This document shows, piece after piece, positions 1 to 30,228 of a stretch of 49,372 nucleotides of DNA. Below the pieces are notes generated by a model, which was given only the letters and a program-made list of their open reading frames with translations, made no database searches and was not told the DNA's origin. The stretch's first letter is position 1. Each line of letters opens with the position of its first letter. The stretch lies in assembly GCA_004366205.1 (NCBI GenBank), contig SIRW01000114.1, positions 1 through 49,372 of the forward strand, given 5' to 3'. Source of the stretch: Actinomycetota bacterium. GTDB taxonomy: Bacteria; Actinomycetota; Acidimicrobiia; Acidimicrobiales; CADCSY01. The translations under genes were made by a program, and so were the position numbers.

Positions 1-687
1 CTCCTCGTACAGCAGCCCGCCGAGGCGCTTGGACTCGGGCACCCCGTGCTGGTGGTAGATCTCGGTGCCCGGCGTGTCGCGGTGGAGCTCGGGCCCGCCG
101 TTGTAGTGGATCGACACGAACGCCCGGGCGCCCAGCCGCACCGCGATCTGGGCCCGGGCGAGCAGCGTGATGCGGTAGTCGCCCGTGCGGGTCAGCACCA
201 CGGTGTAGCCGGCCTCTTCGAGGGCGGCCTTGGTGTGCTGGGTGACGAACCAGTTGAGGTCGGCCTCCCGCAGGCCGTTGTAGCCCACGGCGCCGGTCTC
301 GGAGCCGCCGTGGCCCGGGTCGAGCACGACGTCGGCCGAGCGCAGTGGGGTGCCGCCGACCACGAGCGCCTCGTTGGAGCACGGAGTGAGCACCCGCCAG
401 GCGTCGCCCTCGCGGCCGAGCACGGGCAGGACGTAGCCGGCCGGGGTGACGAGCGCCCCGGCACCGGGGTCGGCCACCGGCGCCTGACCGACGGGTTCGG
501 CGACCTCGGGCTCGGTGCCGGGCTGCTCGGCGGTGGGCCCCTCGGGCTCGGCCGCGGGTGCGTCGGTGGCCGGCGTCGTGGTCGTGCGCTCGGCCCGCTC
601 GAGGGGCAGCGCGGCGCTGTCGCCGGCGCAGGCGCCCGCCACGAGGGCGAGGACGACCAACAGGGGGAGCAGGACCGTCCGCCGCAT
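1..687 (-). CDS. N-acetylmuramoyl-L-alanine amidase lipoprotein, C-terminus cut by window edge
   Basis: Cell-wall amidase that would cleave the bond between muramic acid and the stem peptide. The first 20 residues form a lipoprotein signal: two Arg, a Leu/Val-rich stretch and lipobox LVAGAC with Cys20. An acidic Pro/Thr-rich linker follows to about residue 75. The Amidase_3 zinc fold then begins with DPGHGG (His125), Glu140 and SIHYN (His193), the expected metal-ligand pattern. The 229 visible residues stop mid-domain at the window edge. I chose ATG 687 because GGAGGG lies just upstream; ATG 699 is the alternative. It lies 110 bp after sucD and may have its own promoter. Confidence 0.88.
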   Translation of the reverse strand, partial: MRRTVLLPLLVVLALVAGACAGDSAALPLERAERTTTTPATDAPAAEPEGPTAEQPGTEPEVAEPVGQAPVADPGAGALVTPAGYVLPVLGREGDAWRVLTPCSNEALVVGGTPLRSADVVLDPGHGGSETGAVGYNGLREADLNWFVTQHTKAALEEAGYTVVLTRTGDYRITLLARAQIAVRLGARAFVSIHYNGGPELHRDTPGTEIYHQHGVPESKRLGGLLYEE

Positions 688-25046: not shown

Positions 25047-25412
25047 TCACAGCGCGACGGCGATGGCCTGGGCGACCCGGTCGGTGTGGGTGAGGGTGAG
25101 GCGCCACTCGGTGACACCCCGCTCGGCGGCCAGCTCGGCCGCCCGGCCGTGCAGGCGCACCGCCGGCTGACCCGACGGTGCCTTCACCACCTCGACGTCG
25201 CGCAACGGGAACCGCCACAGGCCCACCCCCATGGCCTTCATCACCGCTTCCTTGGCGGCGAAGCGCGCCGCGAGGCGCTCGGCGGGGTCGCGCCGCCGGT
25301 TGGCGTAGGCCACCTCGGCCTCGCTGAACAGCCGGTCGACGATGCGAGGGGTGCGCTCGAGGGCCCGCCGGAACCGGTCGAGCTCGACCAGGTCCGTCCC
25401 GATCCCGATCAC
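25047..25412 (-). CDS. acpS: Holo-[acyl-carrier-protein] synthase
   Basis: 121 aa. Adds phosphopantetheine to ACP for fatty-acid synthesis. GIGTDLVELDRF supplies the metal-binding Asp and RLAARFAAKEAVMKAMG the Glu/Lys of the active site; EWRLTLTHTDRVAQAIAVAL is the C-terminal strand set. GTG start overlaps the glmS stop by four bases (GTGA). Confidence 0.95.
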   Translation of the reverse strand: MIGIGTDLVELDRFRRALERTPRIVDRLFSEAEVAYANRRRDPAERLAARFAAKEAVMKAMGVGLWRFPLRDVEVVKAPSGQPAVRLHGRAAELAAERGVTEWRLTLTHTDRVAQAIAVAL

Positions 25413-28400
25413 CGCCCGGCCTCGCGCCAGCGCTCGGCCATGGTGTGCACCGGGACGGTGAGCAGCTCGATGACCGGCTGCTCGCCGAGCAGGTCCTCGC
25501 GGAAGGTGGGCTCGGTCTCGGTGACGGCGTCCTGGATGGCGGCGAACCGGCCCCGGTACCCCTGGAGCACCCCCCGCATCACGGGTGCGGGCAGGCGGTC
25601 GTGGAACCGCACGTGCAGGAGCGTCAGTCCCGTCGCCTCGTCGTCTTTCACCTCCGGCACCACGATCAGCGTCCGGCCGTCGCTGCGGCCCACCGCCACG
25701 GTGACCTCACGCTCGAGGGCGGCGCGACGCTTGATGCCCCGCAGGGTGGGATCGTCGGCCGTGCGGGACCGCAGCTGGCGGGCCACGCCGCCCTGGTCGA
25801 GCACGTGGGCGGTGGCCGTCCCCGCGGCCACGTCGCCGTCGATCCGGTAGCGGGTGTACCCGGTGACCTCGGCGACCGCGGGGTCGAGCGCGGCCAGGGT
25901 GCGGAGTGCCCGGTAGGTGAGCAGGTCGCGCGGCGCCCCTGCCTCCAGCACCTCGCGCACGAGGGCGGCGGCCAGGAGCGACTCGTCGGCCCGGGAGATG
26001 CCCACGGTCACGGTCTTGGCCTGGTGCTTGATGGCGTCGATGGGCCGGGTCAGCTCGTCGATGGCCTGGCTGAGGACGTCGACGAGGTCGTCGATGAGCA
26101 CGCTCGGGGTGCCCACCTTCCCCAACTCCACCTGGTAGTGGTCAAGCGGCACGACACCGGTCGCGTAGCGGAGCACGGTGGCGAGGCGCACCGCCGTGCT
26201 GGCCTCGAGGCTGCCGTCGTAGGCGCCCGTCTGCAGGCCGGCGAAGAACGCCCGGGCGGGGGCGTCGAGGCCGTGACGGAGGCGGTCGAGCAGGTCCACC
26301 GGGTCGCCGGCCGACACGAGGGCCTCGACCGTGGCGCGGCTCTCGCGCAGCGGCAGGGCGAGGGCGTCGATGGCCAGCGCCGCCTCGTAGCCGAAGAGGT
26401 GGCCGCCCATGGCCGACAGCACGAAGGCCAGGTCGGGGTCGACGGCCGGTACGAAGAAGGCGTCGAGGGCGGCGCCGAAGCGCGACTCTCCCTCGGTGGC
26501 GATCACGATCGGCGCCGCCTTGTGCGCCCGGTAGATCGCCACCTCCTTGGCGACGTCGTCGGCGTTCGACCCCGTGAGGCCTGCGGCGCACACGAGGATC
26601 ATGGGCTCGGCGGACAGGTCGATGTGCTTCTTGTCCTCGGTCACGTCACAGGCGATCGACTTGTACGCCAGCTCGGAAAGCTTGATCCGCACCTCCTCGG
26701 CGGCGACCCGGTTGCGGCCGTTGCCGACGACCGCCCAGTAGCGGCGGTGCGGGGCGTGGCGCTGGGCGGCCTCGGCGATCACCGGGCGCAGCGCCAGGAC
26801 CCGCTCCATGGCGTCGGGCAGGTCCCGCACGGCGCGCAGCACCCGGTCGGTGCGCTGGGGGTCGGGGTCACCCGCGGCCTGGGCGAGGGCGGCGGCCAGC
26901 ACCACGCCGGCCCCCACCTGGGCGTAGAACGCCTTGGTGGACGGCACGCTCATCTCCACGTCACGCCCGTCGGACGTGTAGAGCACGCCGTCGGCCTTGT
27001 CGGTGAGGTCGCTGTTGCGCCGGTTGACGATGGCGATCACCCATGCGCCGCGGTCCCGGGCCAGGTCGACGGTGCGGTTCGTGTCGGTGGTCGTCCCCGA
27101 CTGGCTGATCGCCACCACGATGGTGTCGCCCATGTCGCTCCGCAGCCCGAACCCCGACAGCTCGGTGGCGGGAAGGGCCTCGACGTCGATGCCCGCGCCG
27201 GCGACGGCGTCCTCGACGAGCCGGGCGACGGCCTGACCGGCGACGGCGGCGGTGCCCTGCCCGATGACCACCACCTGGCGGATCGCCCGATTGGCGAGCC
27301 GCTCGGCCAGGGCGGGCGGGATCGTCTCGGGCCCGACGGTGACGGTCAGCAGCCCGTCGCCGTCGGTGACGCGACCGCGCAGGGTCTTGCGCATCGAGCC
27401 CGGGGCGTCGTGGATCTCCTTCAGCAGGAAGTGGGGGAAGTCGCCCCGGTCGATGTCACGGGTGGTTATCTGGGCGGTGGCCACCTCGTCGGGCGTGACC
27501 GGCAGGATCGTGCCGTCGTAGGAGCGGCGCTCGATGCCGTCGATCCCGCCCGCCCGGTCGCCGTCGAGGACGACGATCTGACCCCGGCTGTTGACGGGAT
27601 CGTCGGGGTTGGACGGCGTCTCGCCGTCCAGGCGGAGGTAGTGGCGCGTCTCCTCGACGAGCCCGTAGGGCTCACTGGCCACGACGAAGGCGTCCTCGGC
27701 GAGACCGACGTAGAGGGCCTGGCCGCTGCCCCGCAGGCCCAGCAACAGGGTGTCGGGGTGGTCGGCCGCACCGGCCGCGACCGCCACCGACCCCTCGAGC
27801 GCGGCCATCGTGCGCCGGAACGCCTCGTGCAGGGCCTCGCCGGCTGCGAGGCGTCGGGAGAGCAGCGCCGGGATGACCTTGGCATCGGTGGTGATCTCCT
27901 CGGCGATGCGCAGGCCCTCGGCCGCCCGGAGGTCGGCGTGGTTGTCGACGTCACCGTTGAGCACGGCGACGGTGTAGGGCCCCTCGGTGTCGCCCTCCTC
28001 CTCGTGGTTGAGCGGGTGGGCGTTGGCCTGGGAGATGATGCCCACGCTGGCCCACCGGGTGTGCCCCAGGACCGTGGCCCGGGCGCCGGGCGACGACAGC
28101 GCCAGGTGCAGCAGCTCGTCACCGCGGATGGCGGCGCGCAGGGAGCGTACGTTGTCGCCCAGCTCGCCGATCTCGGCCGCCGCCTTGTACACGAACGACA
28201 GGTGGCCGGCGGGGGTGCGCACGGCCATCGAGCCGAAGGACCGGTCGGTGGCCCGGTCCGCCAGCAGCGCCTGGACGCTCGGGGACCCGAGGTCGAGGCC
28301 GTGGCCGCGCACCAGCACGTGCACGCCGGCGGAGTCGCGGCCGCGCACCTCGAGGCGGTCGAGACCGGCCAGGCACACCTGCACGGAGTGCAGGGCCTCG

Positions 28401-28861
28401 ACGGCAGCGGGGCCGACGTGACCGGCCGCCAGGTCGTCGATCGCCCGCGCGGCCCGTACCCGGTCGCGACGCACGGCCCACACCACGTCCTTCAGCCGCA
28501 CCAGCACGGCGTTGACCGACTCGAGCTGAGCGGTGTCGAAGCGGCTGCCGTCGCGGTCGAGGTCGGCTTCGAGAGCGGCGAGCCCCGTCTCGAGCTCGCC
28601 CAGGTCGTGGTCGATGGCCACGCCGAGCGCCCGGCTCTCGAGCAGGCGGGTCACCCCCGGGACGCCCCGGAGCATGGCGTCGACCGCCTCGAGGTGCCCC
28701 GCCGCCGCCTCGGCCGCGGCCATGAGCCCCGGCGCGTCGGTGGCGCTCCGCCGCAGCCCGGCCCAGGCGTCGAGCGCGGCCCGGAGCTCGGCGCCGACCG
28801 TGTCGACGGTCGGCACGGGCCGCGTGGCGGGGCGGCGGACGACGGCGATGATCCCGCACAT
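25409..28861 (-). CDS. glmS: Oversized glutamine--fructose-6-phosphate aminotransferase
   Basis: 1150 aa against about 610 for ordinary GlmS. Makes glucosamine-6-phosphate for cell wall. Cys2 nucleophile in MCGIIAV is intact. Residues ~10-170 are an inserted, mostly helical Ala/Leu/Asp-rich segment; glutaminase then resumes with RGRDSAGVH, GHTRWAS, NAHPLNHE and LNGDVDNH. DFPHFLLKEIHDAPGSM begins the isomerase half. The first SIS domain has SQSGTTTDTN (about 586) and PSTKAF; the second SIS runs to about 880. The last ~270 residues have no match I recognise. SIS and glutaminase motifs look active. No Shine-Dalgarno; TAGGCT lies 11 nt upstream. Immediately follows glmM. Confidence 0.9.
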   Translation of the reverse strand: MCGIIAVVRRPATRPVPTVDTVGAELRAALDAWAGLRRSATDAPGLMAAAEAAAGHLEAVDAMLRGVPGVTRLLESRALGVAIDHDLGELETGLAALEADLDRDGSRFDTAQLESVNAVLVRLKDVVWAVRRDRVRAARAIDDLAAGHVGPAAVEALHSVQVCLAGLDRLEVRGRDSAGVHVLVRGHGLDLGSPSVQALLADRATDRSFGSMAVRTPAGHLSFVYKAAAEIGELGDNVRSLRAAIRGDELLHLALSSPGARATVLGHTRWASVGIISQANAHPLNHEEEGDTEGPYTVAVLNGDVDNHADLRAAEGLRIAEEITTDAKVIPALLSRRLAAGEALHEAFRRTMAALEGSVAVAAGAADHPDTLLLGLRGSGQALYVGLAEDAFVVASEPYGLVEETRHYLRLDGETPSNPDDPVNSRGQIVVLDGDRAGGIDGIERRSYDGTILPVTPDEVATAQITTRDIDRGDFPHFLLKEIHDAPGSMRKTLRGRVTDGDGLLTVTVGPETIPPALAERLANRAIRQVVVIGQGTAAVAGQAVARLVEDAVAGAGIDVEALPATELSGFGLRSDMGDTIVVAISQSGTTTDTNRTVDLARDRGAWVIAIVNRRNSDLTDKADGVLYTSDGRDVEMSVPSTKAFYAQVGAGVVLAAALAQAAGDPDPQRTDRVLRAVRDLPDAMERVLALRPVIAEAAQRHAPHRRYWAVVGNGRNRVAAEEVRIKLSELAYKSIACDVTEDKKHIDLSAEPMILVCAAGLTGSNADDVAKEVAIYRAHKAAPIVIATEGESRFGAALDAFFVPAVDPDLAFVLSAMGGHLFGYEAALAIDALALPLRESRATVEALVSAGDPVDLLDRLRHGLDAPARAFFAGLQTGAYDGSLEASTAVRLATVLRYATGVVPLDHYQVELGKVGTPSVLIDDLVDVLSQAIDELTRPIDAIKHQAKTVTVGISRADESLLAAALVREVLEAGAPRDLLTYRALRTLAALDPAVAEVTGYTRYRIDGDVAAGTATAHVLDQGGVARQLRSRTADDPTLRGIKRRAALEREVTVAVGRSDGRTLIVVPEVKDDEATGLTLLHVRFHDRLPAPVMRGVLQGYRGRFAAIQDAVTETEPTFREDLLGEQPVIELLTVPVHTMAERWREAGR

Positions 28862-28875
28862 GGGTGGAGGTGAGC

Positions 28876-30228
28876 CTACGCCCCAGCGGCCCGCTCGACC
28901 GCTGCGACGAGCCGGTCGACCGCGGCCCGGGCCTGGGCCTCGGTGGGCGCCTCGGCCATCACCCGGACGACGGGTTCGGTGCCGCTGGGGCGCAGCAGCA
29001 CCCGGCCCGACCCGCCGAGGTCGCGCTCGACCGCCGCCACGTCGGCGGCGACGGCCGTGACCAGCTCGGCCGCCCCCCGCCGCACCTCCACGTTGCGCAG
29101 CACCTGGGGCAGCTTCGTCATGGCGGTCCCGGCGAGCTCCGACAGCGGCCGGCCGCGGCGGTGCACCACGTCGAGCAGCTGCAACCCGGTGAGCAGGCCG
29201 TCGCCGGTCGAGGCCAGGTCCCGGAAGATGACGTGGCCCGACTGCTCGCCCCCGAGCGTCAGCCCGTGGCGGTCGAGCGCCTCGAGCACGTGGCGGTCAC
29301 CGACCGGTGTCTCGACCACGCCGATGCCCCGCTCGGCCAGGCCCAGCCGCAGCCCCAGGTTGCTCATGACGGTGACGGCCACGGCGCCGCCGGCGAGCAC
29401 GCCGCGCTCGTGGCGGTCGATGGCACAGACGGCGATGATCTCGTCGCCGTCGACCACCACGCCCCGCTCGTCGACGGCGACGACCCGGTCGGCGTCACCG
29501 TCGAACGCGAGGCCGGCGTCGGCCTGCCGGTCGGCGACCACCTGCTGGAGCCTGCTGGGGTCGGTCGAACCGCAGCCGGCGTTGATGTTCGTGCCGTCGG
29601 GCTCGGCGTGCAGGACCGTGACCGACGCCCCGAGACCGCGCAGCACGTCACCGGCGATCGCCGATGCCGCGCCGTGCCCGCAGTCCACCACGACCCGCAC
29701 GCCGTCGAGGCGCCGGCCGTCGAGCGAGCCGGCCAGCGCGTCGAGCCAGCCGGCGGCGGCCTCGGGGCGGTCGACCACGGCGGCGACGTCGCCGCCCGTG
29801 CGGGGCGGCCGGCCGCCGGCGTCGGGACCGCCCGCCAGTATGCGGTCGAGCTCGGCTTCGACGGCCGCCTCGTCACCGGCGGACAGCTTGCGACCGCCCC
29901 GCCCGAAGACCTTCACGCCGTTGTCGGGAAAGGGGTTGTGCGAGGCCGACACCACGGCCCCGGCGGCGTCCTCGGACGCTGCGATCCAGGCGATCCCGGG
30001 CGTGGGCAGCACGCCCACCCGCTCGACCTCGACGCCCTCGGCGGCGAGCCCGGCTGCGAGGGCGGCCTCGAGCAGCGGGCCCGACCGGCGGGTGTCACGC
30101 CCGATCACCACGCGGGGCGGCGCCAGCACCCGCCCGACGGCCCGCCCGAGGGCCAGCACCAGCTCGGGGCTGAGGTCGCCGTTGGCGACGCCGCGGATCC
30201 CGTCCGTGCCGAACCGCGGCCGGGCCAC
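28876..30228 (-). CDS. glmM: Phosphoglucosamine mutase
   Basis: 450 aa. Converts glucosamine-6-P to glucosamine-1-P, the step after GlmS toward UDP-GlcNAc. RFGTDGIRGVAN at the start, the phosphoserine loop VVSASHNPFPDNG, the metal loop FDGDADRVVAVDE, LGGEQSGHVIF and the phosphate loop LLRPSGTEPVVRVM are all present. GTG start, 2 bp after the rpsI stop. Its TAG overlaps the possible glmS -10 box. Confidence 0.97.
   Translation of the reverse strand: MARPRFGTDGIRGVANGDLSPELVLALGRAVGRVLAPPRVVIGRDTRRSGPLLEAALAAGLAAEGVEVERVGVLPTPGIAWIAASEDAAGAVVSASHNPFPDNGVKVFGRGGRKLSAGDEAAVEAELDRILAGGPDAGGRPPRTGGDVAAVVDRPEAAAGWLDALAGSLDGRRLDGVRVVVDCGHGAASAIAGDVLRGLGASVTVLHAEPDGTNINAGCGSTDPSRLQQVVADRQADAGLAFDGDADRVVAVDERGVVVDGDEIIAVCAIDRHERGVLAGGAVAVTVMSNLGLRLGLAERGIGVVETPVGDRHVLEALDRHGLTLGGEQSGHVIFRDLASTGDGLLTGLQLLDVVHRRGRPLSELAGTAMTKLPQVLRNVEVRRGAAELVTAVAADVAAVERDLGGSGRVLLRPSGTEPVVRVMAEAPTEAQARAAVDRLVAAVERAAGA

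Follow-up and report, generated by a model that had tools for sequence, protein, structure and literature searches.

What kind of enzyme is encoded by a gene that occupies the place of glmS, is recognizable as glmS, and yet is nearly twice as long as glmS should be? The question is raised by a 49,372-nucleotide contig of an Actinomycetota bacterium from the order Acidimicrobiales (SIRW01000114.1, assembly GCA_004366205.1; "the window" below means this whole stretch), whose minus strand carries, at 25409..28861, an open reading frame (ORF) for 1150 amino acids (aa) that starts with ATG, stays in one frame, lacks internal stops and opens with MCGIIAV. GlmS, the glutamine-dependent glucosamine-6-phosphate (GlcN6P) synthase, makes the first cell-wall sugar precursor, and so commits carbon and nitrogen to peptidoglycan. 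Overall, with a probability of roughly 0.6, we believe the product to be the organism's sole glutamine-dependent GlcN6P synthase, a divergent long GlmS that is probably regulated through a tethered active-site lid; this view draws on sequence comparison and predicted structure. The long GlmS is in any case a real and widespread variant, of which our literature searches found no description.

A complete GlmS within a longer chain

Bacterial GlmS combines an N-terminal nucleophile (Ntn) glutaminase domain, two SIS isomerase domains and a C-terminal tail that acts as a lid, in about 610 aa. Each of these parts is found in the long protein, along with the residues that define them. E. coli numbering and residue roles follow known GlmS structures, and their mapping onto the long form comes from our alignments. 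The glutaminase set (Cys1, R26-G27, R73-W74, H86, N98-G99 and D123) corresponds to C2, R173-G174, R269-W270, H282, N302-G303 and D326, and the SIS set (T302, S347-Q348-S349, T352, K485, E488 and H504) to T537, S586-Q587-S588, T591, K727, E730 and H746. The lid motif AK-S/T-VTV, with Lys603, is present as A948-K949-T950-V951-T952-V953, placed internally and not at the C-terminus. Across 58 homologues the whole glutaminase set is invariant together with D176 and S177, as is the whole SIS set with G536, V639 and S641, and A948 and K949 of the lid.

The predicted structure is consistent with this picture. The full AlphaFold model has a mean predicted local distance difference test score (pLDDT) of 88, and contains a complete GlmS fold: residues 2..953 align with chain positions 1..606 of E. 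coli GlmS (1jxa; Z 40.3, root-mean-square deviation (rmsd) 4.0, 593 residues aligned with VIA-align 2), and human GFAT-1 is matched by the same method at Z 40.7 (rmsd 3.6, 598 aligned). The E. coli glutaminase domain (1xff) aligns nearly whole, with 234 of its 239 residues at 1.7 Å across model positions 2..466, which indicates that the N-terminal insert is accommodated and the glutaminase fold unbroken. A viral fold library offered nothing useful for the structure search.

Aligning 42 long and five canonical sequences from Acidimicrobiia places the extra segments. Residues 1-8 (28838..28861; all coordinates in this paragraph are on the minus strand) form the first glutaminase strand with the nucleophile Cys2, the counterpart of E. 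coli Cys1. An insert of added helices, residues 10-150 (28412..28834), lies between that strand and the native first helix, residues 151-169, which leads to RGRDSAG. The initial annotation, made from the sequence alone, had described an insert of about 160 aa after the cysteine; the added helices are indeed there, but they span only about 140 aa and the remainder is the native helix. The rest of the glutaminase domain occupies residues 160-400 (27662..28384), with RGRDSAG at 173-179, HTRWAS at 267-272, NG at 302-303 and D326, and has further length relative to canonical proteins at about 190-250. An interdomain linker, residues 401-470 (27452..27661), is enlarged in both alignment and model, and is followed by the tandem SIS domains at residues 471-835 (26357..27451; SQSGTT 586-591, K727, E730, H746). 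A second helical insert, residues 836-935 (26057..26356), then separates the second SIS domain from the canonical C-tail or lid, residues 939-957 (RPIDAIKHQAKTVTVGISR; 25991..26047), in which K949 equals E. coli K603. The chain ends with an alpha/beta extension of 193 aa, residues 958-1150 (25412..25990), for which a PAS/GAF-like fold is predicted. Thus what had been taken for a single unexplained C-terminus of about 270 aa consists of three parts, an insert, the canonical C-tail and the extension, and the VTVGISRADES segment, whose strands had earlier been assigned to a domain of their own, is mostly the canonical GlmS lid (AKSVTVE, the Lys603 region).

The sole GlmS of its genome and of many others

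The genome that contains the window is 100% complete, and in it no other protein passes as GlmS. A hidden second glmS of normal type, sought as the initial annotation had proposed, was rejected: the two weaker class II amidotransferase matches are PurF, encoded downstream of PurL, and AsnB. A NagB route to GlcN6P was likewise rejected, with no NagB match found in this genome.

The gene also sits where glmS is expected. Its ATG is placed 14 nt past the stop codon of glmM (28876..30228, minus), its upstream neighbour, and tblastn with the window's neighbours recovers the same gene order in contigs with the long and with the canonical form: rpoA, truA, rplM, rpsI, glmM, glmS, nnrD/E, alr and tsaE, with small variations. 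The slot shared by long and canonical glmS is truA-rplM-rpsI-glmM-glmS-acpS-nnrD-alr. The long form thus stands where its relatives have canonical glmS, and no other genomic evidence speaks as strongly for a shared function.

Nor is the long form a one-off. When its length was surveyed in the class, a long relative was present in 119 of 296 sampled genomes (counted by hand), mostly at full length and 54-66% identical, with identity falling to 45% in divergent families. Canonical GlmS above the TIGR01135 cut-off was found in 159 class genomes, none of which is among the 119; not one genome of the class sample has both, and each family consistently has either the long or the canonical form. Outside the class, nine genomes of the phylum carry the long form, eight of them without canonical GlmS. 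A scan of genome contigs in the wider collection found at least 566 encoded relatives, and the best 80, which were kept, include the complete chromosome of Aquihabitans sp. G128 (NZ_CP077604) and metagenome-assembled genomes (MAGs) of Microthrix and Ilumatobacteraceae. The plasmid and phage collections yielded no long form. The long form is the standard GlmS in a large share of Acidimicrobiia and in some sister lineages.

The same survey disposes of an artefact. A chain of this length might have arisen from a frameshift or an assembly fusion, and we consider the chance of this negligible: no evidence in its favour was found, and the same length and the same order of parts recur in more than 100 independent genomes, including the single-contig genomes G002, G003 and G110 and the finished chromosome NZ_CP077604. 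The description of an intact, nearly double-length GlmS was thus correct.

Taken together, the complete fold, the invariant catalytic residues, the shared operon slot and the mutual exclusivity in the class sample make the identity of this protein as GlmS well supported by comparative evidence.

Divergence and origin

In the core, long forms share 62% identity with one another and canonical Acidimicrobiia proteins 51%, against only 28% between the two. In a tree of the core, the long forms group as a single clade outside the canonical GlmS of Acidimicrobiia, with a stem 2.7 substitutions per site in length. They are no recent derivative of the local canonical gene, and the tree is compatible either with replacement from outside or with very fast divergence. 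The clade joins a haloarchaeal sequence at 88%, a placement that raises concern over long-branch attraction and that we do not take as the origin. A tree of neighbouring genes, built on few sites, mostly separates the two forms with about four parsimony changes, and a small number of genomes with the canonical form fall inside long-form groups (L152, L150 and L158, in genomes G059, G127 and G123). Such nesting could be noise, or could mean that the canonical gene later returned to this slot.

A divergence this deep invites a different interpretation, in which the protein is an amidotransferase that resembles GlmS but uses another substrate or forms another product, and so is no GlcN6P synthase. 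The low core identity and the long stem would fit such a change, as would the substitutions fixed in both active sites and scores below the equivalog cut-off. Against it, the long gene replaces canonical glmS beside glmM, none of the long-form genomes in the class sample has a canonical GlmS, and the isomerase residues K485, E488, H504 and K603 are invariant along with those of the phosphate site. We therefore judge a changed reaction very improbable.

A lid held between two added elements

Canonical Acidimicrobiia proteins end in DxPRNLAKTVTVE, whereas the long ones read RPxDAIKHQAKTVTVGISR and then continue. The lid, a free chain end in canonical GlmS, is by alignment and model internal here, and the chain continues from it into a conserved PAS/GAF-like domain of 193 aa. 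Residues 935-957 are the best-conserved stretch of long GlmS (mean column identity 0.96). In the homologues described above, the C-terminal domain is conserved (0.68) almost as well as the core (0.72-0.75), and its polar residues Y1005, R1033, K1044, D1061, R1063 and E1115 are invariant. The early suggestion that the additions fold separately agrees with the prediction for residues 836-1150 alone, which reaches a pLDDT of 95. On the full chain, Pfam recognizes GATase_6 at 263-397 and one SIS at 528-657. Searched alone, the two extra pieces gave no supported Pfam family, in line with the earlier failure to recognize a motif in the C-terminus, and no Pfam or NCBIfam family was consistent across the homologues for the C-terminal piece.

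What does the C-terminal domain resemble? Its top PDB match is L-GDH180 of M. smegmatis (7jsr), with a Foldseek probability of 1.00 but an E value of 0.013; residues 966-1150 align with chain positions 175-361 (VIA Z 9.5, rmsd 4.5, 163 aligned, 14% identity). The next matches are GAF, PAS and dCache sensor domains (Z 6-8, over residues 965-1087). The PAS-like fold is thus a lead from the model, with common descent from L-GDH180 unproven. The window's genome lacks the large glutamate dehydrogenase itself (PF05088), which occurs in just 11 of 59 relatives; if the PAS-like domains of these two enzymes are linked, it is not by co-occurrence.

A general pathway can nonetheless be proposed. Cys2 would hydrolyse glutamine, the ammonia would then pass to the SIS site, and fructose-6-phosphate would be converted to GlcN6P with E730, H746, K727 and K949. 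The lid, no longer a free end, would be held between helices 836-935 and domain 958-1150, such that movement of the C-terminal domain would bear on it. Because the lid is held between two added elements, allosteric control through the lid is the most economical reading. The suggestion in the initial annotation that the additions regulate GlmS or tie it to a partner is plausible, with a PAS/GAF-like fold predicted immediately behind the lid. In this context, it is nearly an even bet that the C-terminal domain acts as a sensor of a metabolite or partner, altering the ordering of the lid and hence the way in which glutaminase activity, ammonia transfer and sugar binding are coupled. For the helical inserts, a role in oligomerisation or in supporting the C-terminal domain is probable.

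The additions might instead be purely architectural, giving a different oligomer or a docking surface for a partner such as GlmM, with no small-molecule sensing. Both inserts (10-150 and 836-935) are all-helical in the model, the N-terminal insert has a mean conservation of 50%, as would suit a scaffold and not a catalytic surface, and glmM is the adjacent operon partner. The C-terminal domain is conserved nearly as strongly as the core, however, with invariant polar residues, and its PAS/GAF-like sheet belongs to a fold used mostly in sensing. We consider the architectural explanation unlikely.

Several observations weigh against a sole GlmS that is controlled through its lid. The equivalog cut-off is missed: TIGR01135 scores 232.8 bits against a cut-off of 418, over model positions 59-589 of 607. 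More generally, the NCBIfam GlmS models give 233-251 bits (E about 1e-70), cover only residues 248-830 and stay below their cut-offs of 418/381. Clade-fixed differences from E. coli comprise Y28R, T76S, H77V/I, S303A (Ala538 in the long form), S604T and E608G, the last at a position that no longer ends the chain; kinetics or specificity could differ given Y28R, T76S, H77V/I, S303A and E608G. The lid segment 948-957 falls below a pLDDT of 50, the only other such positions being 273-275, so confidence is low precisely there. Profile comparison by hhalign of the C-terminal domain with 9-11 L-GDH180 sequences, a shallow set from related genomes, gives a probability of at most 1.8%. Finally, one genome outside the class (G335) encodes both forms, on contigs C155 and C313 (loci L159 and L168). 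G335 is a 6.5-Mb MAG with 5% contamination and the only genome seen with both forms; its double set is possibly due to contamination. Even so, the long form probably works like GlmS, though it lies outside the curated TIGR01135 equivalog, and allosteric control through the tethered lid remains the reading we prefer.

Other features of the locus

An acpS-like gene of 121 aa (25047..25412, minus), named from sequence pattern only, begins with a GTG that shares bases with the glmS stop codon (GTGA). On the plus strand, an antisense ORF of 1142 aa (25445-28873) spans the entire glmS gene and is most likely a shadow ORF arising from GC-rich codon usage. Elsewhere in the genome (G000:C50:62450-63505; L198 1480-2574, minus), GlmU is 364 aa long, matches positions 2-344 of 452 of TIGR01173 and is without the end of its acetyltransferase half. 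Among the GlmU proteins compared, those from the window's own order end early, at about 336-362 (with one shorter fragment), alike with long or canonical GlmS, and those from nearly all other orders are full length.

Comparison with known systems

The long form shares with bacterial GlmS (TIGR01135 / PRK00331; E. coli 1jxa and 2j6h) its domains, its lid, its mapped catalytic residues and, within the class, its operon slot with glmM. It departs in size, in a core only about 28% identical, in the inserts at 10-150 and 836-935 and the enlarged linker, and in a lid that lies internally and is followed by 193 aa. If the proposal is true, a lid wired to its own folded domain in a widespread natural GlmS would be a new control principle, and the long enzyme would offer a direct test of lid motion gating ammonia transfer. 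We tentatively propose, at somewhat less than even odds, a separate GlmS subfamily whose lid, joined covalently to a PAS/GAF-like sensor domain, gives allosteric control at the protein level over entry into cell-wall synthesis, and which has taken over the slot of the canonical enzyme in a large clade of actinobacteria. At the same time, equivalog cut-offs miss the sole GlmS of many genomes, which would then be mistaken for amino-sugar auxotrophs.

Other controls of bacterial GlmS include a ribozyme and small RNAs. The long glmS differs from ribozyme-controlled glmS: neither a glmS ribozyme nor any other Rfam RNA was matched within the window, and glmM and glmS are 14 nt apart. GlmR is reported to be a separate protein controlling bacterial GlmS (PMC6171935).

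Eukaryotic GFAT-1 (6svq and others) shares the fold and is likewise a GlmS-type enzyme bigger than the bacterial standard, but the human protein keeps its lid C-terminal where the long form has it internal. Bacterial GlmS is taken to be without the eukaryotic UDP-N-acetylglucosamine (UDP-GlcNAc) feedback, and the GFAT-1 site residues T447, T458, G461 and H463 align to V612, A623, V626 and Y628 in the long form (PMC7000685 for the lack of feedback in bacteria and for the site). Since this site is not conserved, feedback of the GFAT type is unlikely, and control would require some other ligand or partner. A parallel in design may be the PAS module of L-GDH180 (7jsr, residues 175-361), proposed as a metabolic sensor (PMC8175468): it too is an add-on to a large enzyme of glutamate metabolism, but it sits N-terminal to the catalytic core, whereas the domain of long GlmS is C-terminal.

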